A stretch of 61,217 nucleotides of DNA from a virus: positions 1 to 61,217 of IMG/VR virus record IMGVR_UViG_3300027741_000065. The stretch is one strand, 5' to 3'. The first letter of the stretch is position 1, and each line of letters begins with the position of its first letter. This document shows, piece after piece, positions 686 to 36,658 of the stretch. Made by a program: the position numbers and the translations under genes. The notes below the pieces were generated by a model. It ran no database searches, was not told where the DNA came from, and worked only from the letters and a program-made list of their open reading frames with translations.

Positions 686-2056
686 ATGCCAAGAGATATA
701 GATAGCGGTTTTGATGAACTTGGATTTGCAACAACCCCACAAGCTGTTATGCCAACGGCTCAGGAGCGTGGGCAAGCCGCATTGGATGCTCTTCCTCAGC
801 ACATTAAAGATGCAATAGCTTCTGGAAAATTGACGCCAAGTTATGAATCGGTGCGCGTTAGAGATGGTCGCGGGGGTGAGGGGTACGAGGCAAACGGAGA
901 CCTCCGAGGGTTTACTTCCCTTGACCCAAACGACATTGAAACTAGCTACGATCTTGCAGGAAACGTAACCGGGACAAGGCAGGTTGACCGTACTGGAGGA
1001 TGGATAGGAAGACTTACTCCCGGGCTAACAATGGCTGCGCTTGCGGCTATGGGTGGAGCAGGTATTTCCAACCTTCTCGGGGCGGGCGCTGGAGCCGGTA
1101 CTGCGGCAGGAGGTGAGGGAGTTGCTTCATTGTTTGGGGGGTATCCAAGTTTGGAAGCGTCAGAAATGGCGGCATATACAAATGCAACTGGAGCTGGCGC
1201 CGGTTTAAATGCGGCCGCTGGACTTGCACCTGCAAGTGCTGCATTGGCGCCACACTTAACGCCCGCTGCTATTGAATCCTTAATGGGTTCCGCTGGATAC
1301 GGAGCAAATTCTGCAGCCTTGGCTGCGGCTCCAATTTTAGGAGCAGATGCCGCCCTTATTGGATCTGGAGCAGCTATTGGTGCATCAGCCATCCCAGCCG
1401 CTCTTGGTGCATCAGCTATCCCGGCTGCAGGATCTGCTCTTAGTGCAACAGAGGCAGCAAAAGCAGCAGCTGCAAAAAGTTTACTGGGTGGAAATAAAAG
1501 TTCTTTTGGCGCTATTGGTGGCGGTCTTGGGCTTGCCGCCCTACTTGCATCTATGAACAAGAAAAGTGGTACAGATGATTCTTACAAGGGAACCATCCCA
1601 GAATACACAGCATCCAGAACACAGACGCCAACCAGTGAAACTAGACAAGGTATCAATGGAGCGCCCTATCGTCCTGGCCAGGGTGGTGTTACTTACTTTA
1701 GCCCGACAACCTATACGCCCAAAGCGGCTGGTGGCGGGTTGATGGGTCTTGCCAATGGAGGGGTAACTCCAGGACAATACAACCTAGGATCTTATTCTGA
1801 TGGTGGCCGTCTTTTAAAAGGACCTGGGGATGGTGTATCCGACTCCATACCTGCAGTCATTGGTCAGAAACAACCAGCCAGATTAGCAACGGGAGAATTC
1901 GTTATCCCGGCCCGAATTGTTTCGGAGCTAGGCAATGGGTCTACAGATGCTGGCGCTAAAAGACTTTATGAGATGATGAATAGAATACAGCAAACCCGTC
2001 GCAAGACTAAAAATGTTGCCGCTAACACGAATGCGGCCAAGTACCTACCCGCTTAA
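686..2056 (+). CDS. Ala/Gly-rich virion or ejection-type protein
   Basis: 456 aa beginning 1 base after the previous stop. Residues ~110-300 are almost entirely Ala/Gly/Ser/Leu with hydrophobic stretches, giving a likely membrane-active or flexible middle. The C-terminal ~90 residues carry the recurring phage motif GDGVSDSIPAVI, then RLATGEFVIPARIV and a basic helix ending in QQTRRKTKN. I have seen this end repeatedly on phage structural proteins near tail genes, but its role is not established. A long antisense frame opposite the Ala-rich part is a composition artefact. Confidence 0.75.
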   Translation: MPRDIDSGFDELGFATTPQAVMPTAQERGQAALDALPQHIKDAIASGKLTPSYESVRVRDGRGGEGYEANGDLRGFTSLDPNDIETSYDLAGNVTGTRQVDRTGGWIGRLTPGLTMAALAAMGGAGISNLLGAGAGAGTAAGGEGVASLFGGYPSLEASEMAAYTNATGAGAGLNAAAGLAPASAALAPHLTPAAIESLMGSAGYGANSAALAAAPILGADAALIGSGAAIGASAIPAALGASAIPAAGSALSATEAAKAAAAKSLLGGNKSSFGAIGGGLGLAALLASMNKKSGTDDSYKGTIPEYTASRTQTPTSETRQGINGAPYRPGQGGVTYFSPTTYTPKAAGGGLMGLANGGVTPGQYNLGSYSDGGRLLKGPGDGVSDSIPAVIGQKQPARLATGEFVIPARIVSELGNGSTDAGAKRLYEMMNRIQQTRRKTKNVAANTNAAKYLPA

Positions 2057-2064
2057 GGAAAATC

Positions 2065-2958
2065 ATGGCCGACCAACCCGCTCTCACTAATAACCTGACA
2101 ACTGGCGGAACTAACTCCCAGGGGCTCGCGTCCTGGGCTGCTCCATATGTTACAGATATGCTTGCCAAAAGTAAGGCAACTGCTGGAGAGGGCTATAAAA
2201 CATACGGAGGCCCACTAACGGCTGGGGCTTCTGATTTACAGAATAAAGTTTTTCAGGGAATTGGTTCTCTTAACTTTCCTGGAAATCTTGGAAAAAGTTT
2301 TAGTTCTTCTGGCGCATATCAGTTGCCACAAGTTGGTGCTGACGGAACTATTAGTGGAAGCTCTGGAGATCCCGGCATAGCTAGTCAATACATGAACCCG
2401 TATTTGATGTCGGTTCTAGGCCCACAGTTAGATGAACTTCGCCGCCAATCTCAAATTACACAGATGGGCAACAATGCCAAATCAACACAATTGGGTGCTT
2501 TTGGTGGAGCAAGACAAGCAATTACGGATTCCGAAACCAATCGCAACCTAATGCAAGAACAGAATAAAACTGTTGGTCAGGGCTATTCCAATGCCTTTGA
2601 TAAAGCTATGGGTCAGTTTAATACTGAGCAAAATCAAGCAAAAACCTTGGTCGACCTTATGGCTGAGCAAGGAAAAAATCAACGTACAATTGAATCGGAA
2701 GGAATTGCTGCGGATAAAACTGAGTTTGAAAAACAACGCGACTATCCCAAAGAGCAATTAAAGTTTGAAAAAGATATGTTGGCAAATTTACCAATGTCAG
2801 CAGTTACAAATACCCCGGGAGCACAAACTGATTTGGGAAATTTGCTTTCTATTCTTGGTGGCGGAATGAAATTATCGGAAGCAGGCGGATACGCCAATAT
2901 TGGAGATCTGCTCAAAGATCTTTACGGCGGCGCAAAAAACATTTTTAGCGGGCCTTAA
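2065..2958 (+). CDS. Internal virion-type protein, unknown function
   Basis: 297 aa, starting 8 bases after the upstream stop with AAGGAAAATC as ribosome site. It opens with a Thr/Gly/Ser-rich part. A helical centre follows with YMNPYLMSVLGPQLDELRRQ (residues ~112-131) and GAFGGARQA, then long charged helices (~150-240) and a Gly/Leu-rich end. The YMNPY and GAFGGAR patterns recur in phage proteins encoded beside giant internal proteins. It probably belongs to the ejected or internal protein set with its neighbours; no enzymatic motif is seen. Confidence 0.72.
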   Translation: MADQPALTNNLTTGGTNSQGLASWAAPYVTDMLAKSKATAGEGYKTYGGPLTAGASDLQNKVFQGIGSLNFPGNLGKSFSSSGAYQLPQVGADGTISGSSGDPGIASQYMNPYLMSVLGPQLDELRRQSQITQMGNNAKSTQLGAFGGARQAITDSETNRNLMQEQNKTVGQGYSNAFDKAMGQFNTEQNQAKTLVDLMAEQGKNQRTIESEGIAADKTEFEKQRDYPKEQLKFEKDMLANLPMSAVTNTPGAQTDLGNLLSILGGGMKLSEAGGYANIGDLLKDLYGGAKNIFSGP

Positions 2959-2967
2959 GGAAAAAAA

Positions 2968-4506
2968 ATGAATCTTATTCAAATTCAGGAGCATCTAAAA
3001 GATCTTCCTACTCAGGCAATCATGGGATATGCCAATGGGCAAAATCCAGAGGTTCCTCCTTACATGGCGTTGAGCGAGCTAAACCGCCGCAAGTCTATGG
3101 AGCAGCGGGCCGCGCAGCAACCTACTCAGTCTGTTAAAGATAAGCTTGAATCCCAAGTAAGCCAAGCCCCTCAAGGGCCTCAAGGAATTGCTCAGCTTCC
3201 TCAAGCTATGCCGCCCCAAGGACCGGAGCAAGGTTTGCCCCAAGGTTTGCCCCAAATGCCCCAGGGTGTTCCAGGCATGGCTGATGTTGGCTTGGCTGGG
3301 CTACCGGTTTCCGATGACATGTTCAATTACGCTCCCGGTGGGATAGTTGCATTTGCCAATGAGGAAAATGATCAAGTTGTTCCCGAGGAAAATATGGATG
3401 GCGGAGGGGATAGCAATGAGGGCGAAAAAGAAGCAATGGCAGGGGTGAGGAGTATTGCAAAACCAGCGTTTCCAGTTTTAAGCATGGAGGATGCGGCTAA
3501 AGAAATTATGCGCAAACGAATTGCTGGTGAAACAGACATCCCAGAGGTTATAAGCCCAGCTGATGCAAGAGCAGCGGCTATAAAACAAAACCCCAAACTA
3601 GCACCAATCTTGAACTCCCTTCCTGGGGAGGCGATTGAGGGTCTTATCAAAAATCTTGCAACGCGGAACCAAGCCTCGCAAGATAAATTTAAAGAGAACG
3701 AAGGACGGCTGGGGCTTGCCGGCTTGTCCAATGCCTTGATTGCTGCAGGAGAAGCTACGCGAGGCCACAAAGGCTTGGCTCTTGGAGAAGCTTTGGGCGG
3801 CTTTGGTAAATCCTATGGTAGGTACACCGAAGAATCAGTCAAGCGTGATGAGGCGCAACAAGCTCTTCAGCGCCAATACGAAATTGAAACAGCCAAGCTA
3901 CAGAGCGACGTTCAAAGCTTACAGAGAGCTTACGCTAACAATGACGTTAATGCTATTGCTCAATACAGCAAAGATGTTGCAGATAGAAAAGCTAAGATTG
4001 AAGCAATTCAAGGAACTGCAGCATCTAACGGTCTTGATATTGGAATTAAAGAGCAAAATCTTGCGGCGACTATTGCGCATCAGAAAGCTCAGAACGCTAT
4101 GTCTCAAGCCCAACTTGAAGAGTCAAGGCGTCACCATAAAGGGCAAGAACAAGAATGGGCTAATGCCAAAGCTAATCGTGCAGAACAATTGCAAATTATG
4201 AAAGATAGCAGGCCCACAGCTGAAAGCAGAGAGATTGACAGAATAAATCAAACAATTGGTCAAAGAGTTAGAAGTCTAGAAGCAAGACAAAAAGACATTG
4301 AGTTTGGTAGTGATGAGTGGAATAAAATTCAGGATGTAATTGATGACACATTTGAGCAAGCTTATAGGGCTCATAAAATAGAACCGCCACCCAGAATCCC
4401 AAGGCCAAAGATTGATGAGCCAGAAAAGAAGCCTGGATTTTTTAGTGGCCTATTTGGTAGCTCCCCTGCTCCAAAAGCTGTATCATTCGACCAGCTTCCA
4501 AAATAA
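2968..4506 (+). CDS. Coiled-coil internal virion-type protein
   Basis: 512 aa with ribosome site AAGGAAAAAAA directly before ATG. The N-terminus (MNLIQIQEHLKDLPTQAI, then YANG and VPPYMALSELNRRK) is a short conserved domain of phage internal proteins. Residues ~50-100 are Gln/Pro-rich low complexity and ~300-450 form long Ala/Gln/Glu/Lys coiled coils. It is immediately upstream of the giant polyvalent gene and probably co-packaged with it. Function is inferred from context only. Confidence 0.72.
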   Translation: MNLIQIQEHLKDLPTQAIMGYANGQNPEVPPYMALSELNRRKSMEQRAAQQPTQSVKDKLESQVSQAPQGPQGIAQLPQAMPPQGPEQGLPQGLPQMPQGVPGMADVGLAGLPVSDDMFNYAPGGIVAFANEENDQVVPEENMDGGGDSNEGEKEAMAGVRSIAKPAFPVLSMEDAAKEIMRKRIAGETDIPEVISPADARAAAIKQNPKLAPILNSLPGEAIEGLIKNLATRNQASQDKFKENEGRLGLAGLSNALIAAGEATRGHKGLALGEALGGFGKSYGRYTEESVKRDEAQQALQRQYEIETAKLQSDVQSLQRAYANNDVNAIAQYSKDVADRKAKIEAIQGTAASNGLDIGIKEQNLAATIAHQKAQNAMSQAQLEESRRHHKGQEQEWANAKANRAEQLQIMKDSRPTAESREIDRINQTIGQRVRSLEARQKDIEFGSDEWNKIQDVIDDTFEQAYRAHKIEPPPRIPRPKIDEPEKKPGFFSGLFGSSPAPKAVSFDQLPK

Positions 4507-4515
4507 GGGGTTAAC

Positions 4516-7500
4516 ATGGATGTATTGATGCCAGATGGTACTACCATCACTGGTGTACCGGAGGGTATAACTCAATCAGAATTGCTTGCAAGATACAACA
4601 AGTTAGTTCCATCTACTGAAAGCGCAGTAGAACCATCCGAAGTCCAGCCACAAACTGGACTCTCCGCCTTTGCTCCATCCGTAATGCGTGGTGGGCGTGG
4701 ATTGGTTTCTCTCATGGGTGATGTTGCTCCAGCAATGATTGCCAAAGCTGTAGGTGCGAATGACTATGCCAAGCAGCAGATGAAAGAAGCTGCCGCATAT
4801 CAAAAAGAAACAGAAGCTTTATATCCATCTGCTGTACCATCGTTTACCAACATCAAGGGTGTTGGCGATGCATTAACTTACATTGTTGAAGCGGTGGGTG
4901 AGGCTATTCCCACCCTTATACCAAGTTTGTTTACTGGCGGCGCAGCAGCAGTTGCTGGCCGTGGTGCAGTTGCAGCAGCTAGAGTTGCAGCAGAGAAAGC
5001 AGCGGCTACAAGCATGGCTTCTGGCGTAACCGCTGAAGCTGCAAAAGAGATTGCTCTTAAAGCCGGTGTTAATGCCGCTAAACGTGAGGCGTTAAAGTAT
5101 GAGATAGCTGGATCATTGGTTGGTTCAGCAGCGCAAAACGTCCCAGATGTGTACCAAGGATTGTACGAAAAAGGTTACGACAACCTTCCGGCTGCATTGT
5201 TATTTGGTGGATTTAATACCGTATTGGATGCTGTTACTCCAATCAACTTATTGCGCAAATCCAAGTTGTCTGGCATCCCAGAGAATGAAATTATTGGCGC
5301 TTGGTACAAACGTGCAGGTAAGGGCGCACTCGAAGGAATGGTTTCCGAGGGCGTCACTGAGTCAATTCAAGAGATGTCAAGTGCAGCAGCTGAAAAGTTT
5401 GTTGACAGCAACAATGACTTCTTTACACCGCAAAACTTTGAGCGGTTTATCAATGCTGGACTCAAGGGTGGTCTTGGCGGCGCTGGTATTTCTGCGGCTA
5501 CTAACGTGGCGTTTGGCCGTAAAGAGGAGGAAGTCCCCCCTTCTCCATTGGCTGCTGTACCTCCATCCAATAGTCCAATTGTTGGAACTACAAAAGTAAA
5601 TGTTGGAGGGAAGGAAAGCATTAAAGTTGTCAGGCAAGATGGAAGCGTAGACATTGACGGCGTTCAAGTCACACCGCCAACTGCTGGTATTGCTACGCTA
5701 CCAACCCAACCTGGCGATCAAGCAATAGTTACGACTGCACCAACTCAAGAAGGTCAAGGCATAACTACACTTGTTCCCCCGGTCCAACAAGATATCACAG
5801 GCGAAGAATCTCAGGACCAACAGCAACTAATTGATGAAGCCAATCAAATTCTTGGTACGCCTACTGTAACACCCGTTACTGTTGGGCAAACACCAGACAT
5901 CATAGATCTCCTGCCCAAAGAACCAAAAGGAACTACTAGTGGCCCTAAAACCATTGAAACCCAGCAAACAACGCCGCAAGAACAACAAGCGCCCACAGCC
6001 CCTGTAACCTGGGAAACAATTCAGCCCGGACAAGATATAACTCTTTATCGTGGTGAGAATAAAGAGAACCTAAAAGAAGGTGAATGGTGGACAACAGATA
6101 AAGCCAAAGCGGAAAAATTTGGTGAAGTAACAGAAGTAACTTTACCTGCTGATATAGTTGGAAAGCATTCTGTTCAGGGTCATGGCGGGCCTGATGAGTT
6201 TGTATTCCCCACTCCAGGAAGCCGCCCAACTGACTTGGCTAAAAAGCCTGAAGTAACTGCGCCCCCTGCAATCACAGGAGGTCCATCTACGCCTAAAGGT
6301 CCGGTTGCTCCAGTAGAAAAACCTGTGGAAGTTGCACCTACTCCTGAGCCTACTGCAACAGAAGAAAAGCCAACCAACATTGATGAAGTTATAAGGTCAT
6401 ATCGTGATGACCCAGATGTTGCTGCTGGTGTGATTGCAAATGATTTAGTTGGGCAAACACATTTAACTGCTGAAGTAAGGCAGATTGCAAAAACCTATTT
6501 AACAGATGGTGAAGATGCTGGGCGTACACAATTTAAAGAAAGTGTGCAAGACCCTGATAGTGGTTTTGGTCTTTTAGGTTTAACGCAACCGGAAATGGAT
6601 GCGTACTTTGATGAGATGGATCAATATTTAACCGAGAGATCCAAAATTTTTAGGGCAGAGCCTGCACAGAGTGCTGCATTGCCTCAACTCCCAGCCGGGG
6701 AAACCAAGCCCGTAGAAGGTGAAGCTGCACCTACTGGCGGTCCTACTGCACCAACTGGTGAAACTAAACCTGTAGAAGGTGAAGCTGCTCCTACGGGAGG
6801 CCCTGCTGCGCCCGCCGGTCCAGCCAAACCTCCAAAGGTAAAGCTTACTGATGAGGAAAAGGCCAAGGCTGCGGAAGAAAAGAAGGCGGCTGATGAAGCA
6901 AAGGCCAAGGCTGCGGAAGAAAAGAAGGCGGCTGATGAAGCAAAGGCCAAGGCTGCAGAAGAAAAAGCTGCTGCTGACAAAGCGGCTGAAGAGCAAAAGA
7001 AAAAGTTGGAAGAGTTCAACAAGCAGCCAATGAAGGTTGCAATGGATGAAGGTAACGCTGATACAGTTGCTTCTCTTCTATATGGTAAGTCTGTACCTCC
7101 AGAACTTCATCCTATTATTCTTTCAGAAGGATTGATCCGTATTCCTGTAAATATGGATGAAGTTGAAAAAATTGAGTCTGCTTTAGTTAAGTATGGTTTT
7201 ACGATTACAGGGCGCGATGTTCCTGCTACTACAGATGATCCTGCTTACCAAGGTCCAGAGCGATTAACTATATCTGCGTTATACAAACCAGAAAAAACAA
7301 GCATTGAAGGTGGCGGTGCTGAATTTGGTGGAAACCGTAAAGGCAAGCCAAAAAATGTTCAGCCAATAACAAAAGACGCTACAGACGGTCAGATCAACAA
7401 GATGCTGGCCGCTGTAAGTAAAGAAGAGTTGCTAGATGTCACATCAAACCCAAACAGTTCGTTTGGCGCAATGATGTTCAAGGAAGGTATTGTCAGCTAC

Positions 7501-10500
7501 ATCTTGTCACCAGTTGATTACATGCTTAAAGAATTAAAAGCATCAACTAGTCTTTATATTAATAGCCAAATGGGTGGGAAGCAAGCTATTAAGTTGGCCT
7601 TGCAACGTGGAATGGAAACGCAAGTACAAACTCTACTGCAACAATATGCAGATAGTTTGACTGACCTTCAGAAAATTTTTGATTCCAATCCGCGCATAGC
7701 TGATTTGTCTCTTGCTTTAAAAGATAAATACATCAAAGATGAGTTTGTTAGAGAGGCAATAAAAAAATATACAGACGACGGATTAAAACTGCGATCCACA
7801 TTTGAAGAAAAATTTAAAAATTTTACGCAAGTTTTTTCAAATTTGTATCAGTTGTTTGCTGGTAATGAAGACTCAACAGACCAGACTAACCGCATAGTTA
7901 AAAAAGAAACTGAAGTACCGCCAGAGCTTGGCAACATCATCCGCCGTGGTATGCGTGATCACCGCCAAGGCCGTAACGTAGATGTTGAAGACTTTGTAAA
8001 AACCTTTGGGCTTTTCCCAGGTGGCGTTGACTTTGGTAACTGGGTCAATCAATCTGAGCGTGCGGCTCACTTAAACGCTATCTATGATGCCATGTACGAC
8101 ATGGCTGATTTGTCTGGCATTTCTCCAAAGATGCTTGGATTAGACCAAAAGTTAAAAATAGCTATTGGAGCGCAAGGTAGAGGCGGTAAAACTGCAGCTC
8201 ATTACATACCAAAGCTCAATGAAATCAACCTTACTAAAACTAAGGGAGATGGAACTTTGGGCCATGAGTGGCATCACGGCTTAGACCATAACTTGCGATT
8301 GACAACCAACGGCAAAATATTGATGGCCGATACAGTTGTTATGCTTAAAGGCATGATGGACGTTGATAGGGTTGAAAACAATCTTCGTAGTATTTTGCGA
8401 GATGCTGCTAATACTGCAGACAACCGTAACCTTCCGCCAAAGAAAGCAATGTTTGCTGCCGTTACACAGGGCAGATACGACCAGCAACCTTCTATTTATC
8501 AAAATTCAAACGAGCCAACTAAATTTTACAAAGATGCTCGCAATTTAGATGATGGCGCATCACCTCCTTATTGGAGTTCAGATACGGAGATGTTATCTCG
8601 TGGATTTGAGTCCATGTTGTTTGATGCATCTAAAGGTGGAAGCCCGTACCTTGTTGGCCCAGATAGGGCTGATGGTTACATATCTCCAAAAAATGGATAT
8701 GCAGGAACCTCTTATCCAACTGGTAAAGAGCGCCCAAATATTAATGAAGTGTTTAAGCAGATGCTTGAACAGATTGACCCAGAAACACTGGAAGTCAAGA
8801 CTTACAAAATGGAAACAAAAATTGTTTACATTGAAGATCTTGGCTATGCTGTTTTGGATCAATACAACCTTAGCACAGGCGGCGATGGAACATTAATTTG
8901 GTACAAAGACGAAAAACAAGCAGAACATATTAAATCATCTCGCAATGGAAATGATAGAGCTTTAACTCCATACAGGATACAGATTGGTAAAGTTAATAGT
9001 CGCATCCTGGATATCTCTAAGCGTGTTGACGCAATCATGGAAGAGATGGGTCTGTTTAAGTGGCCTGAGATTAAGAACGGATCAATGGCTGAGTCCATGT
9101 TCTATCACATGCGCCAAGGCTGGTGGCCCAAGAACAACCGAGAGCTGGCTGAATACGGCATTAAAGCTTACCTTCAAAAGCCCGAGCTGCTTGGATTTAA
9201 TCCGGCTAAAGATCAAAGCGAGATTGACAAATACAAAATTTCAGACTTTGAAGGTGACCGGGTAAAACTTAAGCAAACTCAGGAAGATTTTGAGGCTGCA
9301 GCTGCTAGGTATATAGGCCAAATTATCACCGACATGCGAGCTTCTGGTTCTGACACCAAAGCCATCTACGATTACATTGTTAACCTGTATCAAAACCAGC
9401 CAACGCTGGATGTTCAGTCTGTCCTAAGCAAGACTAACAACGCCTACTCCACACCTCTACCTATTGCATTCCTGGCTGGTATGTTGGCTCGTATCAAGTC
9501 AACAACTACCGTATTTGATCCCACTGGCGGCAATGGAATGTTGGTGGTTGCAGCCAACCCACAAAATGTAACAACGATAGAGTTGGATCCTCATCGCGCT
9601 AATAACATGGAGCTGATGCAAATTGGCAATGTTATTCAAGGAGACACTACTGAGGAAGTAAAAAAACTTAGAGACCAAGAGGTTGATGTTGTTTTAGCCA
9701 ATCCACCATTTGGCGCTCTTTCTACTCCGGTAAAAGTACCATCTTGGACGGGGCAGGATTACAGAATTGGTACTTTAGATCAGTTGATTGCAGCTGAATC
9801 TTTACGCACTATGGCTAACAATGGTCATGCCATATTGATACTTGGAGCGCATCCAAAGCCAGGTACTGTAACTTCAACAGACCGAGTGTTCTTGAATTGG
9901 CTCTACGGTAACTATAACGTAGCAGATCATTTTGAAATTGCTGGTAATTTATATCGTAAACAAGGTGCGTCTTGGCCGTTGCGCTTCTTGGTTATTGCCG
10001 GTAGAAACCAAACGGAAAATGCTTATCCAATTGACTTTACTGTTGATCGGATAACTTCATTTGATGAACTTTGGAGTAGATATGTTCAAGCCAGTGATCG
10101 TAGCGAAAAAGTCGTGGTGGGTACCGGAAAAAAACAGCAGCCTGCTGGCGGTGCAAATCAACAGCCCGGAGGAGTACCAACAGGCAATACGTCAGAAGAT
10201 GGAGAGCTTGGCGGAGGAGTTGGGGCTGGAGAGGGCGCTGGCAACGGCGAACCACTATCTCCAACAGGAGGGGGCACGGGCACTTCCGGAGCCGGGGGAC
10301 GAGGAACAGCTGGTGGAAATGGTACTGGAGAACAACAGCCGCCTAATGGAAAAGGTAAACGAGGGGGATCCAGCGATAGCGAAACCGGCGGAACCGGAGG
10401 ACGCACAGGTAGCAGTGAAAAATCAGGAGATGAACTGGGAGGACTTTCTGACCTAGACCTAGATGACATCTTTGACAATCTAGGTAAGCCAGAAAAGCCA

Positions 10501-13500
10501 AAGGGTGGTCCTCGCGCCCCTGCAGCTCCTCGCACTCCACGGGGTGAATCTACTGGAGGTCCAAAAACTCCAAGAGGCCCATCAGTCAAAGCCCCAACAG
10601 CCATTCCTACAGAGTTGGAAGGGCTAGGTCTGGAAGACTTATTGGGAGAGTTGGATGAGGCTTTAAATGGAAAACCTCCAGAAGCACCCAAGCCTCCAAA
10701 ATTTGAAGCTCCAACAGGACTTGGCGCTAAACCAAAAAGAGAAAACAAAAAGCCAGTACAGGAAACTAAAAAACCAGTACAGCTGTTGCTTACATATTCC
10801 GCTCTATCTGGAATGGATAACTACTATAGAGCGCAATATTTTAAATACCTTGAAAACAAACAAGTTAATGCGGCACTGTCTCGTATAGCCCAGAACGCCA
10901 AGAACACTAGCGATGACCCTAACAGCGGCCTGTATTCCCGCAAAGGTGATCAAGATTACGCCAATGTGCAGCCCATCATTCAACGTGTATGGGAAGCTAT
11001 TGGGCAAAAGATTAGTGATGTAACGCAGCGTATCAAGCAGGTTTACGCATTGCTGGTTACTAAATTTGGTGAGCCAATCAAAGCGCATCTACGTACGTTT
11101 GTTGAAACATTGCGAAACAAAGATAAACGGCGTCCAAAGAATCAAACCCCAGTTCAGTCTGAACCCATTGATACCGAATCTCGGGTTGTGTACCTTGGCA
11201 AGTCTAGGTTTGCAAGCGATGGCATTTACCTACCCCGAGCACAGTCACAATATGCTTACTCTGCTCTGGAAAACCTGGAAGCACAGGTGGGTGATATTGA
11301 TGAGTTTGTAGCCAATGAGCTGGGCTATCCATCTGTTGAAAAGATGGCTAAAGGATTGGCTGGATACCAGATTGACGGTCTAGCTCTAGCTATTCAAGCC
11401 AACAAACTTGGTAAAGGCTTCATCATTGGTGACGACACCGGTGTGGGTAAAGGACGCGCTGCAGCCGCAATGTTGGTATGGGCTAAAAAGAATGGAAAGA
11501 TCCCAATCTTTGTTACCCTGAGCGACTCTTTGTACACAGCAATGTATGAAGATTTGAGCAATATTGGGCATGAAGATATGCAGATTGGAATGACCAATAA
11601 TGATTCTATTATTCAGAAAAACATTGGTAACGGCAAAACCAAAATTGTATTCCAGAATAAAGGAAAGAATGGTCCAGACCTTATGTCCTACATCACCAAG
11701 CATGGTGAGCTGCCTAAGGGCATGGATGTATTGTTTACTTCCTACTCTCAACTGAATGGTGGAGCTGGTTCCCCGGCTCGACAAAATGCAATTGCTTCTT
11801 TGGTAGCTGCAGGTAAAGCTGTGTTGGTTATGGATGAAGCCCATAATGCAGCAGGCATACCAACTAACCCAGAATCAATGGGCCAGAACGCATTTTTTAT
11901 GTCTTTGCTTACAGGTAAAAACTTGTTGGGCAAAGACAAAGATGCGCCAGAAGATTGGCAGCCACCATCAGCTTTGTACCTGTCGGCTACTTTTGCTAAG
12001 CGGCCTGACAACATGCCGTTGTATATACATACAAACCTACGCTATGCAGCCAACACTCCAGAAGAGTTGACTGAATTGTTTGGCAAAGGTGTAAAAACTG
12101 ACGTACTACAACAAGTTTCATCTGAAATGCTTGTTGAGTCTGGTTCCATGTTGCGCCGCGAGAGATCGTATGAGGGCGTAACTATGGACTTTGTTACAGA
12201 TGAAGCCAATGCTCCACGCGATACAAGGGAGGTTGATAGGGTTACAACTATTCTTCGCTCTTTAGTTAATGCTGACCGCGCCCTCAAAGAGTGGTTGAAG
12301 ACGGGAGATGCTCAAAAAGATATTATTGAAAAGCTTGGACCTAAGGGTTCTATGTTGGGCAAACAAGGGCCTAACGCATTTACCCAAGCAAGAAGTAACA
12401 TGTTTACTTCCGTGGTTCACAACTACATTGGCACTCTGTTGCTGTCTACCAAAACTCAAACTGCAGTAGACATGGTAGTCGACAAAATGAATAACGGCGA
12501 GAAGGTTGTTATTGGTTTGCAGAGCACCAATGGCAGCGCCCTGGATGATTTTGTTCAAAAGAACAACATCAAGATTGGAGACGAGATTTCCAACTTTGGG
12601 TGGCAAACTTTAATTCAACGTGCAATTGATTCAACCAGAAAAATTACATTGAAGGCTGCCAATGGAGATAAAAAAGATGATGTAAAAGTGGAGATTCCTT
12701 ACTCCATGATGCCGCCCTCTATAAGGGCTGGCTATGACAACTTGGCATTAATGATCAAAGACTTTCAGTCTGATTTACCTGTTGCTCCTATTGATTTCAT
12801 ACGCACAGAGCTTGAAAGTAAGTATGTCTGGACAATTGATGGTAAGACTAATGTTGGCAATACTCCACCGGCTGGAGTTAAGTCTCGGCGTTTAGTTGTT
12901 AAAGAAGTGACTGGTCGTAACACTGCTATTGACTACCGTGGGGACAAGCCAAAATACATGGCACTTGACAACCCCGAGCGTGTTCAAATGATTTCCCAGT
13001 TTCAAAATGGGGAAGACTCAGAAAAAGGGCCAATTGACGTACTAATAATTAATTCTGCTGGTGCTACCGGTATTTCCTTACATGCATCTGTTGAGGCGTT
13101 TGATCAGCGTCCTCGCCACATGATTGTGCTGCAGCCACATGGAGATATTAGCGTCTTCATTCAGTTGCTTGGACGTATTCATAGGACGGGTCAAGTTGAG
13201 TGGCCGTCATTTACCATGCTTGCTACCGGCATCCCAGCTGAGCGGCGTATTCTGGCAATGCTTCGTAAGAAGCTATCCAGCTTAAAGTCCAATACTTCAG
13301 GCGGATCCAGTAGTACAAAGGTTAATGGCGTTGACTTCATCAACATGTATGGGGACGTAGCAACTGCCGAGTACCTTAATGAACATGCCGACATCCGTGA
13401 GTTTTTAGGCCAGCCATTATTTCAAGATCCCGATAAGGAAGCGGGAACAGACTTGGCTCACAAAGCTTCTGGCACGGCGGGATTGTTGTCCTCTGCAGAT

Positions 13501-16500
13501 CAGCAAGAGTTTTTTGACTCTATTGAGGCTAGTTACACAGCGGCGATTGAACTTCGTAACGCCACCGGGACTAATGCTCTAGAGCGTAGGGTTCTTCCTT
13601 TGAATGCAGAGATGATCAAGGAAAACCTTATTGAAGAGGGATTGGACAACTCTAACCCATTTTTGTCTGATGTGGTTATGGCTCAGTTCAACGTAGATGT
13701 GATTGGGTCCATACCTACTGAGCAAAACATTAAAGATGATATTGCTCAAGCTTTGAACGGACGTACTCCCCAGCAAGTAGTAGATGAGATTGATGCTGAA
13801 CTCAACACTATTTTTATTGAAGTGCGCAACCAAATTATTTTGAAGCAACAGGATTTGGATAGAGCTATTGCGGCACCAGAAGCTACAGAAAAAGACAAAG
13901 AACAATTTACAAATCAAAAAAATGGATTGATCGGGGATTTTGTAAAACTTGGCGCTCGTCGGGAGCAAACGCTTAATGCTTTAAGGTACGAATACGCAAT
14001 TGGCATGGGCTATCAAGATTTTGAAATTAACAACGTGCCTGCAAGCGCAGTTGTTATTGGCATTAAAGTTGACAAGTCTCGTATTGGAAAATCAAAAACA
14101 GGTAACCCTTACTCTCCATCCAACTTCCAAGTTATCTTTAAGCGCAACATTCCAGATGGTAGGGTTGCTCCTTCATTAGCTACGCTAGAAGGAAAAAGCA
14201 TTAAAAAAAGTAGTGGTTACCGCAATCCCCCTTTAAATGAATTTTTTGCCTTACGTTCTGTAACGGGTGGCCGCACTACCCGCTACATTGCCCTGGGGAA
14301 CATCCTGCGGGCTGCACAACTTTTTGATAAAGATGGTGGAGAAATTGCTAGGTTTACTATTGCGAACCAAGATGAGCCGGTGTCTGGTGTGGTCATGCCT
14401 GCCAAATACGAGCCCGTGGCTATCAGTTCACAGCCAGTGCGGTTGCGTAATCCTAATGCGGCATCGCAGTTCGTCTTAGCAGCATGGCACCAATTCCTGC
14501 AGAAGAAGTATCAAGATACCCAGTTTGATTCTTACAAAGATGTAGCAGACCAAGTAAAGCCATTGCTACTAGAAGGCTTGCCAGACTTTGGCCCATTGGA
14601 GGAGACCAAGCGTAGGAACTATAGCGGCACTATTTTGCGCGGCTCACAAAACATGTGGACGCTTACGCTAGATACGTACCGTCCAAGCAATGGTTTCCGT
14701 TTAGTTATTGATGAATCAGCCCCCAAGAAGTTTATTTCCTCTCCAGACATTAAAGATCTGGTTGGGGCTATGGCTAAAAAACGCAACGGACCTTATGAAA
14801 TGTCCGACAGGAGCTACATCCGCGATCCGGAAAAAGTTGCTGCGTTGGTTAAGTTCTTACACAAAAACTATCCCGCTACTGTAGAAGCTGATTTTGGAAC
14901 ATTGGCTCGTGAACTAATGAAGGTGGAGTTTGACAACAGCGAGGCCAATAAGGGCATGTTGTCTCGTGGAGTTGCTGAGGGTGGTCAAAGCGTTGAAGAC
15001 GTTCAATCCCAAATTATTCCAATCAACGGTATCACTGTTAAAGTTGTTCAGTCTGCTGACAACCTTCCGGATACAGCTGCTCCTTCCGATGTTGAGGGTG
15101 CTTGGTACTCCGGAAACACCGTTTACCTTGTGGCTGATAACTTGCCTAATGCGAAACGTGTACAGGAAGTACTAGCGCATGAAGCAATTGGCCATGCCGC
15201 ATTGGAAGCAATGCTTGGCAAGGAAATGATGGGTGAGTTAGTAAAGAACGTACAAAACCTAGAGAAAACTTCAAATCTTATTAAGAAGATTTCTGAGCAA
15301 GTAGACCGCACACAACCCGGCTTGTCTCCAGAAAACCGGGCCAAAGAGATCGTAGCCGTAATGGCAGAGCGCGGGATTCAGAATGGACTGATAAAGCGTG
15401 TTTTTCAGGCAATACGTAACTTCCTTAAAAAACTTGGCTTCACAATTGAGTTTTCTGACAGTGATATCTTAGCTCTGCTGAGGAATGCAGAGAAATTTGT
15501 GGCTGGAGAGTTTAGCCCAACAGGGGAATCACTCTATTCTAGGAAAAACATTTATGGAAAACCAGCACCATTGGCTGTATTCCAAGCTCCAGATGAATTG
15601 AAGCTAACGGATACGTTTATCCAAAAGTATGTTGACAAGCAAATTGATACCAAGCGTATTGTTGAGGCCATCACAAAAGAAACTGGTCGTATCCAAGACG
15701 CTTGGAATCCATACCTTAAAGAAGAGTTGTTCCACGGAAGAACTGCTAAACAGACCATAGACTTTCTGAAGAATGATTTGCGTCCCTTGTTGGAAGACAT
15801 GGACAAGCGCGGAATAAATCTGGATGATTTCAATGAGTACCTCCACAATCGCCATGCCAAAATTCGTAATGAAGTTATAGCTATACGTGATCCTGGAAAA
15901 CCTGATGGCGGATCTGGAATATTTAACCAAGAAGCAGATGACTACATGGCAGATCTGGATAAAAATCCAGAACTTAAAAAGAATTTTGAAGCTCTTGCAG
16001 CCAAAATTGATAGCATCATTGAGGAAACTCAAAACCTGTTAGTGTCATCCGGCTTGGAAAAGCAAAGCACTATTGATGGTTGGCGTGAATTGTTTCCATT
16101 CTACGTTCCTCTTAACCGAGAGGAGGATGAGCTTGATTTCATTAACTCAAGCAGCGGCATGGGCCAAGGATTCAATGTTAGCGGCCCCTTCTCAAAAGCA
16201 GCCATAGGCTCGTTCAAGACTGTTAAGGACATTGTTGGAAGCATTGCCCTACAACGTGAGCGTGCAATTGTTAGATCAGAGAAAGCTATCGTTGGACGGG
16301 CAGTATATGCCCTGGCTATCCAAAACCCCAATCCAAACTTTTGGATGCCTATCAACCCAGAGGCCATCAAGAACAAGCAGAAGCTTATTGATGAAATGGT
16401 AAAGATGGGCATGTCTTTGGCTGATGCTGAAAACATTTTTCAAGAGCCAAAAACTGGTAGCCTGGATAAGAAAACTAACGTAGTTAAGTATGCAGTCAAT

Positions 16501-18282
16501 CCAAATATGCGCAACTCACCTAACGTGCTTCATACACGTATCAATGGTGAAGACCGCTACGTGTTCTTTAACCCGGGAAACCCCAACGCTAAGCGTATGG
16601 TGGAATCTTTAAAGAACCTTGATACCCATCAAGTAGATGAAGTATTGAGTGGCATTGCCGAGATAACCCGTTTCATTGCAGCTGCAAGCACTCAATACAA
16701 CCCAATTTTTGGTGCATTCAACTTTGTGCGTGACGTTCAGAGTGCTGCACTCAACCTGTCCAGCACTCCTATTGCTGATAGTAAAGTTCAGGTTGTTAGT
16801 GACTCTGCAAAGGCTGTAAGGGCAATATACCGTCATTTGCGCGGAAAAGGTGCTACTACTCCAGAGATGCAGAACTGGATAGATTTGTTTGAACAGTTTC
16901 AAAAAGCTGGTGGTCAAACAGGTTTTCGAGAGCAGTTTAGCCGAGGCAAAGGCAAGGAAACCATTGTTGCTCGTGAGCTTGAACGCTTAAACCGTGGGAA
17001 CGTCAAGAAAACTGCCTATGCCGTATTTGATTGGCTGTCTGACTATAACGATGCTATGGAGAACGCAGTTCGTCTTTCTGCGTTTAAAGCTGCCTTAGAT
17101 AAGAATATCTCTGTAGATCAAGCTGCAAGCATAGCCAAGAACATTACTGTTAACTTTAACCGTAGGGGTGCAAGCACTCAAACGATTGGCGCCTTGTATG
17201 CTTTCTTTAATGCTAGTGTTCAGGGTACAGCACGGTTAGCTCAAACGCTTTTTGCCAAAGACAAAAATGGCAAGATGATTTTAAGTTCTATTGGTAAAAA
17301 GATTGTTGCCGGCGGAATGCTAATTGGAGTTATGCAAGCCGCCATCTTGGCTATGGCTGGTTTTGGTGCAGATGATCCTCCCGAGTGGGTAAAGTCTAAA
17401 AACCTTGTTATTCCAATTCCAGGTAGTGAAAGCAAGTACTTAACTGTACCAATGCCATTGGGTTTCAACATCTTCCCCAATGTTGGCCGCATTGCTTCTG
17501 AGTACATGTTGGTCCAATCTGGTGCGATGGGTGGCAAGCGTGATATTAAGAAAACCATTACTTACCTTGGATCTTCAATATTTGATTCCGTTAACCCGCT
17601 TGGATCCAGCACGTTTGCTCAAACATTGGCACCTACTATTGTTGATCCATTTGTCGGCATTGCTGAAAACAAAGATCCTTTTGGTCGTCCAATTTCAAAA
17701 GAGAACAAAGCTCTTGCGCCAACACCTGGCTACCAGCGCAGCCGGGATTCGGCCAATGGATTGAGCCAGGCAATTGCTTATGGCCTTAACTACATAACTG
17801 GTGGAGGCGATAAAGGAATTGGTTTAGTTAGTCCAACTGCAGACCAGCTGAGCTATATAGCAGGGCAATATACCGGCGGTGTTGGAAAACTTGGTATTCA
17901 AAGTTACGAGTACGCAAAGTCAAAAGTAACGGGGGAGGAGGTACAACCATACCAAGTTCCAGTTGTTGGTAAGCTGTACGGTGATACCAATACACCCGCT
18001 GCTATTGCTGGTCACTTCTACGAAAACATCATTGAGATGTCCAAGCATGAGAACATCATCAAGGAAATGAAGGGAAAGGGCGTAACCGAGTATTACAAGG
18101 AAAACCCTGAGGCTAGGCTATACCATCGAGCCAACTATGTTTCCAACGAAGTTGCTCGACTTAAGAAAGAAAAAAAGGCGCTGATGGAGAAAAATGCACC
18201 AGACGCCCAGATTAAAAGAAAAGATGAACGCATAAAAGAAGTGATGGCAGCGTTCAACAAAGAAGTTACAAAACGCCAATGA
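4516..18282 (+). CDS. Giant polyvalent protein (protease/methyltransferase/helicase), 4588 aa
   Basis: This one gene fills 22% of the genome. Seen in order: an N-terminal cap (GVPEGITQSE); an Ala-rich hydrophobic region (~125-320); an ADP-ribosyltransferase-like segment (LYRGE, R512, then WWTTDKA and FG); Lys/Ala/Glu repeats (~780-835); and a zincin HEWHH (H1250, E1251, H1254). An N6-adenine methyltransferase follows with DPTGGNG (1668-1674) and NPPF (1729-1732), then a Gly-rich linker (~1880-2100). A strawberry-notch-like SF2 helicase has Walker A TGVGKG (2308-2313), DEAH (2440-2443) and LLGRIHRTGQ (2884-2893). A second zincin-like HEAIGH (3555-3560) and an LPD38-like C-terminus with NPIFGAFNFVRD (4062-4073) complete it. 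Such polyvalent proteins, like P1 DarB, are packaged and ejected to counter restriction or early host defence; that role is inferred here. Start: ATG after AAGGGGTTAAC. Confidence 0.9.
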   Translation: MDVLMPDGTTITGVPEGITQSELLARYNKLVPSTESAVEPSEVQPQTGLSAFAPSVMRGGRGLVSLMGDVAPAMIAKAVGANDYAKQQMKEAAAYQKETEALYPSAVPSFTNIKGVGDALTYIVEAVGEAIPTLIPSLFTGGAAAVAGRGAVAAARVAAEKAAATSMASGVTAEAAKEIALKAGVNAAKREALKYEIAGSLVGSAAQNVPDVYQGLYEKGYDNLPAALLFGGFNTVLDAVTPINLLRKSKLSGIPENEIIGAWYKRAGKGALEGMVSEGVTESIQEMSSAAAEKFVDSNNDFFTPQNFERFINAGLKGGLGGAGISAATNVAFGRKEEEVPPSPLAAVPPSNSPIVGTTKVNVGGKESIKVVRQDGSVDIDGVQVTPPTAGIATLPTQPGDQAIVTTAPTQEGQGITTLVPPVQQDITGEESQDQQQLIDEANQILGTPTVTPVTVGQTPDIIDLLPKEPKGTTSGPKTIETQQTTPQEQQAPTAPVTWETIQPGQDITLYRGENKENLKEGEWWTTDKAKAEKFGEVTEVTLPADIVGKHSVQGHGGPDEFVFPTPGSRPTDLAKKPEVTAPPAITGGPSTPKGPVAPVEKPVEVAPTPEPTATEEKPTNIDEVIRSYRDDPDVAAGVIANDLVGQTHLTAEVRQIAKTYLTDGEDAGRTQFKESVQDPDSGFGLLGLTQPEMDAYFDEMDQYLTERSKIFRAEPAQSAALPQLPAGETKPVEGEAAPTGGPTAPTGETKPVEGEAAPTGGPAAPAGPAKPPKVKLTDEEKAKAAEEKKAADEAKAKAAEEKKAADEAKAKAAEEKAAADKAAEEQKKKLEEFNKQPMKVAMDEGNADTVASLLYGKSVPPELHPIILSEGLIRIPVNMDEVEKIESALVKYGFTITGRDVPATTDDPAYQGPERLTISALYKPEKTSIEGGGAEFGGNRKGKPKNVQPITKDATDGQINKMLAAVSKEELLDVTSNPNSSFGAMMFKEGIVSYILSPVDYMLKELKASTSLYINSQMGGKQAIKLALQRGMETQVQTLLQQYADSLTDLQKIFDSNPRIADLSLALKDKYIKDEFVREAIKKYTDDGLKLRSTFEEKFKNFTQVFSNLYQLFAGNEDSTDQTNRIVKKETEVPPELGNIIRRGMRDHRQGRNVDVEDFVKTFGLFPGGVDFGNWVNQSERAAHLNAIYDAMYDMADLSGISPKMLGLDQKLKIAIGAQGRGGKTAAHYIPKLNEINLTKTKGDGTLGHEWHHGLDHNLRLTTNGKILMADTVVMLKGMMDVDRVENNLRSILRDAANTADNRNLPPKKAMFAAVTQGRYDQQPSIYQNSNEPTKFYKDARNLDDGASPPYWSSDTEMLSRGFESMLFDASKGGSPYLVGPDRADGYISPKNGYAGTSYPTGKERPNINEVFKQMLEQIDPETLEVKTYKMETKIVYIEDLGYAVLDQYNLSTGGDGTLIWYKDEKQAEHIKSSRNGNDRALTPYRIQIGKVNSRILDISKRVDAIMEEMGLFKWPEIKNGSMAESMFYHMRQGWWPKNNRELAEYGIKAYLQKPELLGFNPAKDQSEIDKYKISDFEGDRVKLKQTQEDFEAAAARYIGQIITDMRASGSDTKAIYDYIVNLYQNQPTLDVQSVLSKTNNAYSTPLPIAFLAGMLARIKSTTTVFDPTGGNGMLVVAANPQNVTTIELDPHRANNMELMQIGNVIQGDTTEEVKKLRDQEVDVVLANPPFGALSTPVKVPSWTGQDYRIGTLDQLIAAESLRTMANNGHAILILGAHPKPGTVTSTDRVFLNWLYGNYNVADHFEIAGNLYRKQGASWPLRFLVIAGRNQTENAYPIDFTVDRITSFDELWSRYVQASDRSEKVVVGTGKKQQPAGGANQQPGGVPTGNTSEDGELGGGVGAGEGAGNGEPLSPTGGGTGTSGAGGRGTAGGNGTGEQQPPNGKGKRGGSSDSETGGTGGRTGSSEKSGDELGGLSDLDLDDIFDNLGKPEKPKGGPRAPAAPRTPRGESTGGPKTPRGPSVKAPTAIPTELEGLGLEDLLGELDEALNGKPPEAPKPPKFEAPTGLGAKPKRENKKPVQETKKPVQLLLTYSALSGMDNYYRAQYFKYLENKQVNAALSRIAQNAKNTSDDPNSGLYSRKGDQDYANVQPIIQRVWEAIGQKISDVTQRIKQVYALLVTKFGEPIKAHLRTFVETLRNKDKRRPKNQTPVQSEPIDTESRVVYLGKSRFASDGIYLPRAQSQYAYSALENLEAQVGDIDEFVANELGYPSVEKMAKGLAGYQIDGLALAIQANKLGKGFIIGDDTGVGKGRAAAAMLVWAKKNGKIPIFVTLSDSLYTAMYEDLSNIGHEDMQIGMTNNDSIIQKNIGNGKTKIVFQNKGKNGPDLMSYITKHGELPKGMDVLFTSYSQLNGGAGSPARQNAIASLVAAGKAVLVMDEAHNAAGIPTNPESMGQNAFFMSLLTGKNLLGKDKDAPEDWQPPSALYLSATFAKRPDNMPLYIHTNLRYAANTPEELTELFGKGVKTDVLQQVSSEMLVESGSMLRRERSYEGVTMDFVTDEANAPRDTREVDRVTTILRSLVNADRALKEWLKTGDAQKDIIEKLGPKGSMLGKQGPNAFTQARSNMFTSVVHNYIGTLLLSTKTQTAVDMVVDKMNNGEKVVIGLQSTNGSALDDFVQKNNIKIGDEISNFGWQTLIQRAIDSTRKITLKAANGDKKDDVKVEIPYSMMPPSIRAGYDNLALMIKDFQSDLPVAPIDFIRTELESKYVWTIDGKTNVGNTPPAGVKSRRLVVKEVTGRNTAIDYRGDKPKYMALDNPERVQMISQFQNGEDSEKGPIDVLIINSAGATGISLHASVEAFDQRPRHMIVLQPHGDISVFIQLLGRIHRTGQVEWPSFTMLATGIPAERRILAMLRKKLSSLKSNTSGGSSSTKVNGVDFINMYGDVATAEYLNEHADIREFLGQPLFQDPDKEAGTDLAHKASGTAGLLSSADQQEFFDSIEASYTAAIELRNATGTNALERRVLPLNAEMIKENLIEEGLDNSNPFLSDVVMAQFNVDVIGSIPTEQNIKDDIAQALNGRTPQQVVDEIDAELNTIFIEVRNQIILKQQDLDRAIAAPEATEKDKEQFTNQKNGLIGDFVKLGARREQTLNALRYEYAIGMGYQDFEINNVPASAVVIGIKVDKSRIGKSKTGNPYSPSNFQVIFKRNIPDGRVAPSLATLEGKSIKKSSGYRNPPLNEFFALRSVTGGRTTRYIALGNILRAAQLFDKDGGEIARFTIANQDEPVSGVVMPAKYEPVAISSQPVRLRNPNAASQFVLAAWHQFLQKKYQDTQFDSYKDVADQVKPLLLEGLPDFGPLEETKRRNYSGTILRGSQNMWTLTLDTYRPSNGFRLVIDESAPKKFISSPDIKDLVGAMAKKRNGPYEMSDRSYIRDPEKVAALVKFLHKNYPATVEADFGTLARELMKVEFDNSEANKGMLSRGVAEGGQSVEDVQSQIIPINGITVKVVQSADNLPDTAAPSDVEGAWYSGNTVYLVADNLPNAKRVQEVLAHEAIGHAALEAMLGKEMMGELVKNVQNLEKTSNLIKKISEQVDRTQPGLSPENRAKEIVAVMAERGIQNGLIKRVFQAIRNFLKKLGFTIEFSDSDILALLRNAEKFVAGEFSPTGESLYSRKNIYGKPAPLAVFQAPDELKLTDTFIQKYVDKQIDTKRIVEAITKETGRIQDAWNPYLKEELFHGRTAKQTIDFLKNDLRPLLEDMDKRGINLDDFNEYLHNRHAKIRNEVIAIRDPGKPDGGSGIFNQEADDYMADLDKNPELKKNFEALAAKIDSIIEETQNLLVSSGLEKQSTIDGWRELFPFYVPLNREEDELDFINSSSGMGQGFNVSGPFSKAAIGSFKTVKDIVGSIALQRERAIVRSEKAIVGRAVYALAIQNPNPNFWMPINPEAIKNKQKLIDEMVKMGMSLADAENIFQEPKTGSLDKKTNVVKYAVNPNMRNSPNVLHTRINGEDRYVFFNPGNPNAKRMVESLKNLDTHQVDEVLSGIAEITRFIAAASTQYNPIFGAFNFVRDVQSAALNLSSTPIADSKVQVVSDSAKAVRAIYRHLRGKGATTPEMQNWIDLFEQFQKAGGQTGFREQFSRGKGKETIVARELERLNRGNVKKTAYAVFDWLSDYNDAMENAVRLSAFKAALDKNISVDQAASIAKNITVNFNRRGASTQTIGALYAFFNASVQGTARLAQTLFAKDKNGKMILSSIGKKIVAGGMLIGVMQAAILAMAGFGADDPPEWVKSKNLVIPIPGSESKYLTVPMPLGFNIFPNVGRIASEYMLVQSGAMGGKRDIKKTITYLGSSIFDSVNPLGSSTFAQTLAPTIVDPFVGIAENKDPFGRPISKENKALAPTPGYQRSRDSANGLSQAIAYGLNYITGGGDKGIGLVSPTADQLSYIAGQYTGGVGKLGIQSYEYAKSKVTGEEVQPYQVPVVGKLYGDTNTPAAIAGHFYENIIEMSKHENIIKEMKGKGVTEYYKENPEARLYHRANYVSNEVARLKKEKKALMEKNAPDAQIKRKDERIKEVMAAFNKEVTKRQ
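6859..6963 (+). repeat. 42-bp tandem repeat, about 2.5 copies, inside the giant gene
   Basis: Copies at 6859-6900 and 6901-6942 are identical and a partial third runs to about 6963. They encode a 14-residue KAKAAEEKKAADEA unit, a charged alpha-helical linker between the N-terminal half and the next globular region. Just upstream, 6700-6830 holds two copies of a GETKPVEGEAAPTGGP-type unit. Confidence 0.85.
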
Positions 18283-36401: not shown

Positions 36402-36658
36402 AAACAATCATCCATGTAAATCAGCATGTTGTTAAGGCCAATAGGAAGAATGGGACTAATGATCCCGTGCTTACTGTTAAGACCTACAAGGAGAATAAGT
36501 ACGGGCATGAGGTAACCATCCACGGCGATAGTAAGGTTGTTTACTCACCTGATAAGCCTTTGTCTTGCGGGGCGCATGTTTGGATAGAGACTCAGGGCGA
36601 AGTTACAGTTGTAAATGACAATGACTACTTGTTGGCTCTTGGGCCTTGTGGAAAATGA
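36398..36658 (+). CDS. Conserved small phage protein (MKTIIHVNQHVVKANRK)
   Basis: 86 aa. The order IIHVNQHVVKANRK, PVLTVKTYK, YGHEV, VVYSPDKPLSCGAHVWIET is conserved in phages of very different hosts, usually near packaging or replication genes; function unknown. Coupled on both sides (ATGA at 36398 and 36655). Confidence 0.75.
   Translation: MKTIIHVNQHVVKANRKNGTNDPVLTVKTYKENKYGHEVTIHGDSKVVYSPDKPLSCGAHVWIETQGEVTVVNDNDYLLALGPCGK

Follow-up and report, generated by a model that had tools for sequence, protein, structure and literature searches.

Almost a quarter of a 61-kb phage genome is taken up here by one gene, and the question is what a protein of that size does for its phage. The window, that is the whole stretch of 61,217 nucleotides that was analysed, is a complete-looking genome of ~61,069 bp with a direct terminal repeat of 148 bp (1–148 and 61070–61217, 99% identical), and its last gene therefore continues into its first across the circular junction. 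The gene under study (4516–18282, plus strand) has an intact reading frame from the ATG at 4516 to the stop at 18282 with 0 internal stops, a Shine-Dalgarno-like AAGGGG immediately 5' of the ATG, and a product of 4588 amino acids (aa) and ~500 kDa (computed mass ~499.5 kDa), called the giant below. With good confidence we assign it to the phage polyvalent virion proteins of the DarB/Bcep22 type, and we propose for it loading, ejection and protection of DNA from type I-like restriction; it is a real and well conserved protein, and neither its kind nor its size is unusual for its group, in which similar giants are known.

The giant gene ends a same-strand run of virion genes, leading from the terminase at 36.6 kb through portal, capsid, and SU10-type adaptors across the circular junction; an opposite-strand block stands tail-to-tail with it on its 3' side, and the early genes lie apart from it. 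Upstream of it, all on the plus strand, are a gene for an Ala/Gly-rich protein of 456 aa (686–2056), a proposed internal virion protein by position and sequence character, with no match in Pfam or PHROG; a gene of 297 aa (2065–2958), a proposed ejection partner by its position, with a similar gene in the related contigs L004 and L010; and a gene of 512 aa (2968–4506), likewise a proposed ejection partner, in the same place as gp68 of Burkholderia phage JC1 (510 aa, virion-detected). The gene of the terminase large subunit (36646–39045, plus strand) carries an in-frame intein (Pfam Intein_splicing, aa 255–523, E 3e-17) between two terminase parts. A nucleotide search of INPHARED with the window returned 0 relatives; in a scan of genome contigs, relatives of the helicase of the giant were distant (at most 34% identity), mostly Bacteroidales, with a Rhizobiales MAG as top match, and the phage host is therefore left unclaimed.

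Polyvalent proteins have been described as having a late-gene location and a methylase-helicase dyad with a TP motif and NPP(Y/F); Strawberry-notch helicases occur in a few of them, the proteins carry one to five zincins, among which are a HEXXXH group and a phage type that has Asp at +3 after HEXXH, and the dyad is known also from plasmids [according to Iyer 2017, PMC5512222]. The giant likewise joins several disparate domains (enzymes and LPDs) in one chain, encoded among the late/virion genes of one strand. Its HEWHH at aa 1250, read as a zincin site in the earlier note, is spanned by a CLCA_X-type zincin domain (aa 1143–1260, 7942–8295, plus strand; NCBIfam NF041907, E 5e-30, under the whole-protein cut-off of the model and with about half of the model covered). 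The site has the Asp at +3 (HEWHHGLD) and the His in the preceding strand (AAHY) of phage-type MPTases, this His being replaced by Trp in some relatives. An LPD1 domain follows C-terminally (aa 1345–1420, 8548–8775, plus strand; Pfam PF18796, E 1.6e-11).

The NPPF methyltransferase of the earlier note was recovered as an adenine methyltransferase domain (aa 1640–1811, 9433–9948, plus strand), with PHROG DNA methyltransferase matches (2e-7) and conserved motifs: TP (STP) at aa 1645, DPTGGNG at aa 1668, and NPPF at aa 1729. C-terminal to it lies the helicase (aa 2297–2955), with lobe 1 (AAA_34, aa 2297–2561, 11404–12198, plus strand; Pfam E 4e-15; Walker A DTGVGKGR at 2307, DEAH at 2440) and lobe 2 (Helicase_C_4, aa 2795–2955, 12898–13380, plus strand; Pfam E 1e-19; GRIHRTGQ at 2886). 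Both are Strawberry-notch models (55.8 bits against a Pfam cut-off of 27, and 71.5 against 30.5, respectively), as the note had guessed, and the order of TP before the SAM site, NPP(Y/F), and helicase is that of the dyad. The profile searches that the note had called for thus returned LPD1, LPD38, Strawberry-notch, and the CLCA_X zincin, the Pfam matches (LPD1, AAA_34, Helicase_C_4, LPD38) all exceeding the curated cut-offs; for the ART-like segment there was no Pfam match. LPD36, which in the dyad lies N-terminal to the methylase, had no match anywhere in the giant by Pfam, whose library here may or may not hold an LPD36 model, and a profile search of solved structures with the core, the zincin, the C-terminal part, and the ART-like segment gave chance-level matches only.

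A second zincin-like domain (aa 3495–3660, 14998–15495, plus strand) surrounds HEAIGH at aa 3555. This motif is HEXXXH and not HEXXH, and no library profile matched it; the zincin-like character that had been suggested is upheld to the extent that the site is kept as HE[AG][IV]GH in all relatives covering it and that the zincin 2 profile picks up HEXXH/HEXXXH sites in other phage giants. The same profile matched the HExxH region of the N4 virion RNA polymerase (vRNAP) with hhalign E 1.2e-4 in one comparison, better than 300 local shuffles; the strand-strand-strand-helix order appears in the low-confidence AF2 model only.

The remainder of the chain (aa 3665–4588, 15508–18279, plus strand), referred to as the C-module, is predicted with low confidence to be mostly helical and recurs near the C-terminus of many phage giants. 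It contains a hydrophobic helix (aa 4262–4285, 17299–17370, plus strand) and, directly C-terminal to it, LPD38 (aa 4286–4484, 17371–17967, plus strand; Pfam PF18857, E 4e-32), which settles the LPD38-like end in favour of the first reading; three uncharacterised giant PHROG families match the last ~890 aa. Structure prediction in windows, also suggested earlier, succeeded in part: the ART-like segment gave a confident model (with no significant fold match), whereas the model of aa 3400–4588 was poor (pLDDT 47, pTM 0.25), for which reason no fold search was made with it. The C-module is found at or near the C-terminus of giants of Vibrio D96a, Ruegeria 45A6, Bacillus Palmer, Aeromonas phiARM81mr, Bacteroides BF1-TP2, and MetMV, further in Burkholderia and Pelagibacter phages and, from annotation lines alone, in Stx-converting phages; the material N-terminal to it differs among carriers, zincin 2 is often its N-terminal neighbour, and the hydrophobic helix adjoins LPD38 in the window and in several carriers. 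In Pelagibacter HTVC204P the carrier (1253 aa) occupies the position of T7 gene 16, with the annotated internal virion protein before it and the tail-fibre gene after it. Judged by these comparisons of sequence, the C-terminal end (LPD38 module with hydrophobic helix, preceded by the HEXXXH domain) is a portable unit of otherwise different giants. The archaeal MetMV (L018, 8635–17643; C-module 37% identical) links bacterial and archaeal viruses for LPD38. We do not claim that the C-module is homologous to T7 gp16 or N4 C2, the matches being weak (for T7 gp16, hhalign probability 5% and E 0.0074, with a score of 3.5 bits where the best of 300 local shuffles reached 3.4).

The nearest precedent in layout is JC1 (61,182 bp), whose gp69 (4515 aa, 22.1% of the genome; lytic transglycosylase-like, methylase, helicase, LPD3, and LPD38 domains) was found with 51 unique peptides and the second-highest MS score in CsCl-purified virions [PMC9144972]. 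Like JC1 gp69, Bcep22 gp75, and BcepIL02 gp70 (DarB-like), the giant has a methylase, a helicase, an LPD domain, and an LPD38 end; JC1 and BcepIL02 are podophages of 61–63 kb with giants of 4515–4667 aa, and in this group a gene for a virion protein of ~510–530 aa precedes the giant and opposite-strand genes follow it. Unlike the giant of the window, theirs have an N-terminal lytic transglycosylase with LPD3, a helicase of SNF2/HepA type, and no detectable CLCA_X or LPD1; their similarity to the window by BLAST is confined to zincin 2 and the C-module (for BcepIL02 gp70, which also has LPD38, E 3e-46 and 25% identity across 967 aa). Gp3 of Bacteroides phage BS-TP4 (5391 aa) shows the same succession of methylase, helicase, and C-module, but is only ~21–31% identical, has a longer N-terminal part, and adjoins the portal gene. 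The earlier note had judged the combination of domains extreme, given the size of the phage; this does not hold, since JC1 (61,182 bp, 4515 aa), BcepIL02 (62,715 bp, 4667 aa), and BS-TP4 (64,274 bp, 5391 aa) match it and such domains are listed by Iyer 2017. In Methanosarcina virus MetMV (AZF89913), the C-terminal ~920 aa are 36.7% identical, but the cargo differs, with only a weak, sub-threshold DUF6098 match besides LPD38.

Two further systems are alike in parts. P1 DarB is also a methylase and helicase protein; it is virion-borne, has an N-terminal capsid signal, its first 30 residues targeting the capsid [PMC9024508], and protects DNA in cis, but has 2256 codons, and DarB, used as one sequence without its first ~80 residues, gave no significant match to the methylase, helicase, zincin, or C-module profiles of the window. 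By its predicted architecture the giant is thus a polyvalent protein, as the earlier note had it from P1 DarB and related proteins, and both the mix of domains and the location fit the description of Iyer 2017; by sequence, DarB is not detectable as a homologue of its core. The N4 vRNAP (gp50) is a giant with the same order of parts (N-terminal injection part, enzyme, HExxH domain, large helical C-terminal part); it is ejected, it requires its C-terminal region to be encapsidated, and its gene stands last after two smaller virion-protein genes, but its enzyme is an RNA polymerase and its C-terminal part has no detectable homology to that of the window.

Relatives of the giant were found on 17 IMG/VR contigs, with helicases 75–88% identical to that of the window, and all copies not cut by a contig end have 4.5–4.7 thousand aa. 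The core (aa ~760–3640) is constant, while the N-terminal ~750 and C-terminal ~930 aa switch versions, down to ~14–20% identity. Values of dN/dS are mostly 0.02–0.16 in zincin 1 with LPD1, methylase, helicase, and zincin 2, the helicase having the lowest domain value in several pairs, and reach 0.6 in aa 400–760; the enzyme core is under strong purifying selection. The catalytic motifs are conserved in relatives covering the region, except in L010 and L011, in which NPPF has become HPPA in an otherwise intact gene (from 3509), identically in two contigs of different datasets; methylation is therefore not always needed. In L030 (9389–9465) the giant is split N-terminal to zincin 2, by assembly error or naturally, and the two resulting reading frames (3146 and 1295 aa) overlap.

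The two ends were compared with the rest among 15 phages, using the similarity of the upstream genes, the N-terminal part (aa 1–400; 4516–5715, plus strand; a short variable tag MDVLMPDGTTITGVPEGITQSELLARY and an Ala/Gly-rich region, swapping between phages), the core (aa 1120–3400), zincin 2, and the C-module. Given the core, partial Spearman correlations were 0.85 for N-terminal part and C-module, 0.72 for upstream genes and C-module, and 0.69 for upstream genes and N-terminal part (0 of 1000 permutations each, a figure that overstates the evidence, as the 15 phages are treated as exchangeable and represent no more than some three frame classes; some of the upstream-gene signal may also be plain common descent); given the C-module, the N-terminal part and the core gave −0.27. 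The N-terminal part and the C-module co-vary despite the 3,300 residues between them, and the pattern persists when the most divergent class is left out (8 phages left). The ends of the window are closest to L004 (N 0.84, C 0.82) and its core to L001 (0.80), the ends of which are only 0.26 and 0.37 identical to those of the window. The ends vary together and in step with the upstream genes, and the core is more independent; the simplest reading, which these patterns suggest, is that the ends are a virion "frame" and the middle an exchangeable enzyme "cargo". New here are the evidence that both ends of the giant travel together with the particle genes next to it, with the enzyme core being swapped between phages, and the recurrence of the C-module in giants from phages of many bacteria and from a Methanosarcina virus; the boundaries at aa ~750 and ~3650 offer a concrete guide to the probable virion parts and the probable delivered cargo, and help to annotate the many 'hypothetical' giants with the same C-terminal module. 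The giants compared (L001–L017, L019, L022, L143) start with one of several short N-terminal tags, and similar tags stand on otherwise different giants: L010 MPIYEYKGQQYDI and BS-TP4 MPIFEYNGKKYNV; L143 and Ruegeria 45A6. Possible, but on balance not probable, is a wider reading, in which zincin 2 and the LPD38 module, together with an N-terminal tag that varies, would be a general loading/ejection frame in tailed viruses of bacteria and archaea with unrelated enzymatic cargo inserted and swapped, and in which the DNA-protection cargo of some lineages would work without methylation.

By analogy, the giant most likely travels inside the particle and enters the cell along with the DNA, shielding it from bacterial defences, and it probably works like DarB and the N4 vRNAP. 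For loading into the capsid the chain would rely on its N-terminal tag and its C-terminal module, which would also link it to the small ejection proteins of the genes immediately upstream; at infection the giant would exit together with the DNA or ahead of it, like T7 gp16 and the N4 vRNAP; one or both zincins, as presumed proteases, would cleave the chain or host proteins; the Strawberry-notch SF2 ATPase would track the incoming duplex and the methylase mark or shield it, so that the DNA would be safe from type I-like restriction in the early phase of infection. Packaging is likely from homology and position: of the argument from gene position in the earlier note, the place at the end of the virion run and away from the early genes stands, and JC1 gp69, of the same layout, is in virions, while packaging and ejection in this phage are what we infer from them. 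Protection by methylation is likely, and not universal given HPPA. Giant injected proteins are a major, poorly tested part of phage survival at first contact with host defences.

It is rather unlikely, by contrast, that the giant is mainly an ejectosome or DNA-translocation protein with a helicase-like motor pulling the DNA in and methylation secondary or vestigial. The T7 gp16 position of the HTVC204P carrier, the hydrophobic helix that many carriers have ahead of LPD38, the loss of the methylase motif beside an intact helicase in L010/L011, and the low dN/dS of the helicase would all suit such a motor, but the methylase motifs are intact in all other covering relatives, their domain is under purifying selection, and the dyad also occurs on plasmids and in L027, there in a 1986-aa protein without C-module. 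Less probable still is anti-restriction by decoy or binding, with the giant coating or occupying sites on incoming DNA without methylating them: the identical HPPA variant in full-length genes of two datasets speaks for it, and the conservation of NPPF, TP, and SAM motifs in all other covering relatives against it. That the giant is an unpackaged, early-acting intracellular enzyme is very improbable, given its place as last gene of the late run, adjoining virion-type genes and separate from the early ones, the co-variation of its ends with the upstream genes, and the virion association of JC1 gp69.

Between frame and core lies a hypervariable region (aa 400–760, 5713–6795, plus strand; pairwise dN/dS up to 0.6), in which most relatives are little identical to the window. 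It includes the segment first called ART-like (aa 494–575, 5995–6240, plus strand), an assignment that was not confirmed and is kept as a candidate only: LYRG...TTD..KA...GHxG..EFV is invariant across 6 sequences (the window, L004, and L143–L146) and the AF2 model is good (pLDDT 82.5), but there is no sequence match in Pfam or PDB, and no significant fold match by Foldseek, PARP16 (an ART) being at rank 2 with E 1.4. Among the 17 IMG/VR relatives the segment is present in L004 only; in L145 and L146 it recurs in different proteins of 1.45–1.5 thousand aa, and therefore looks like a separate portable domain.
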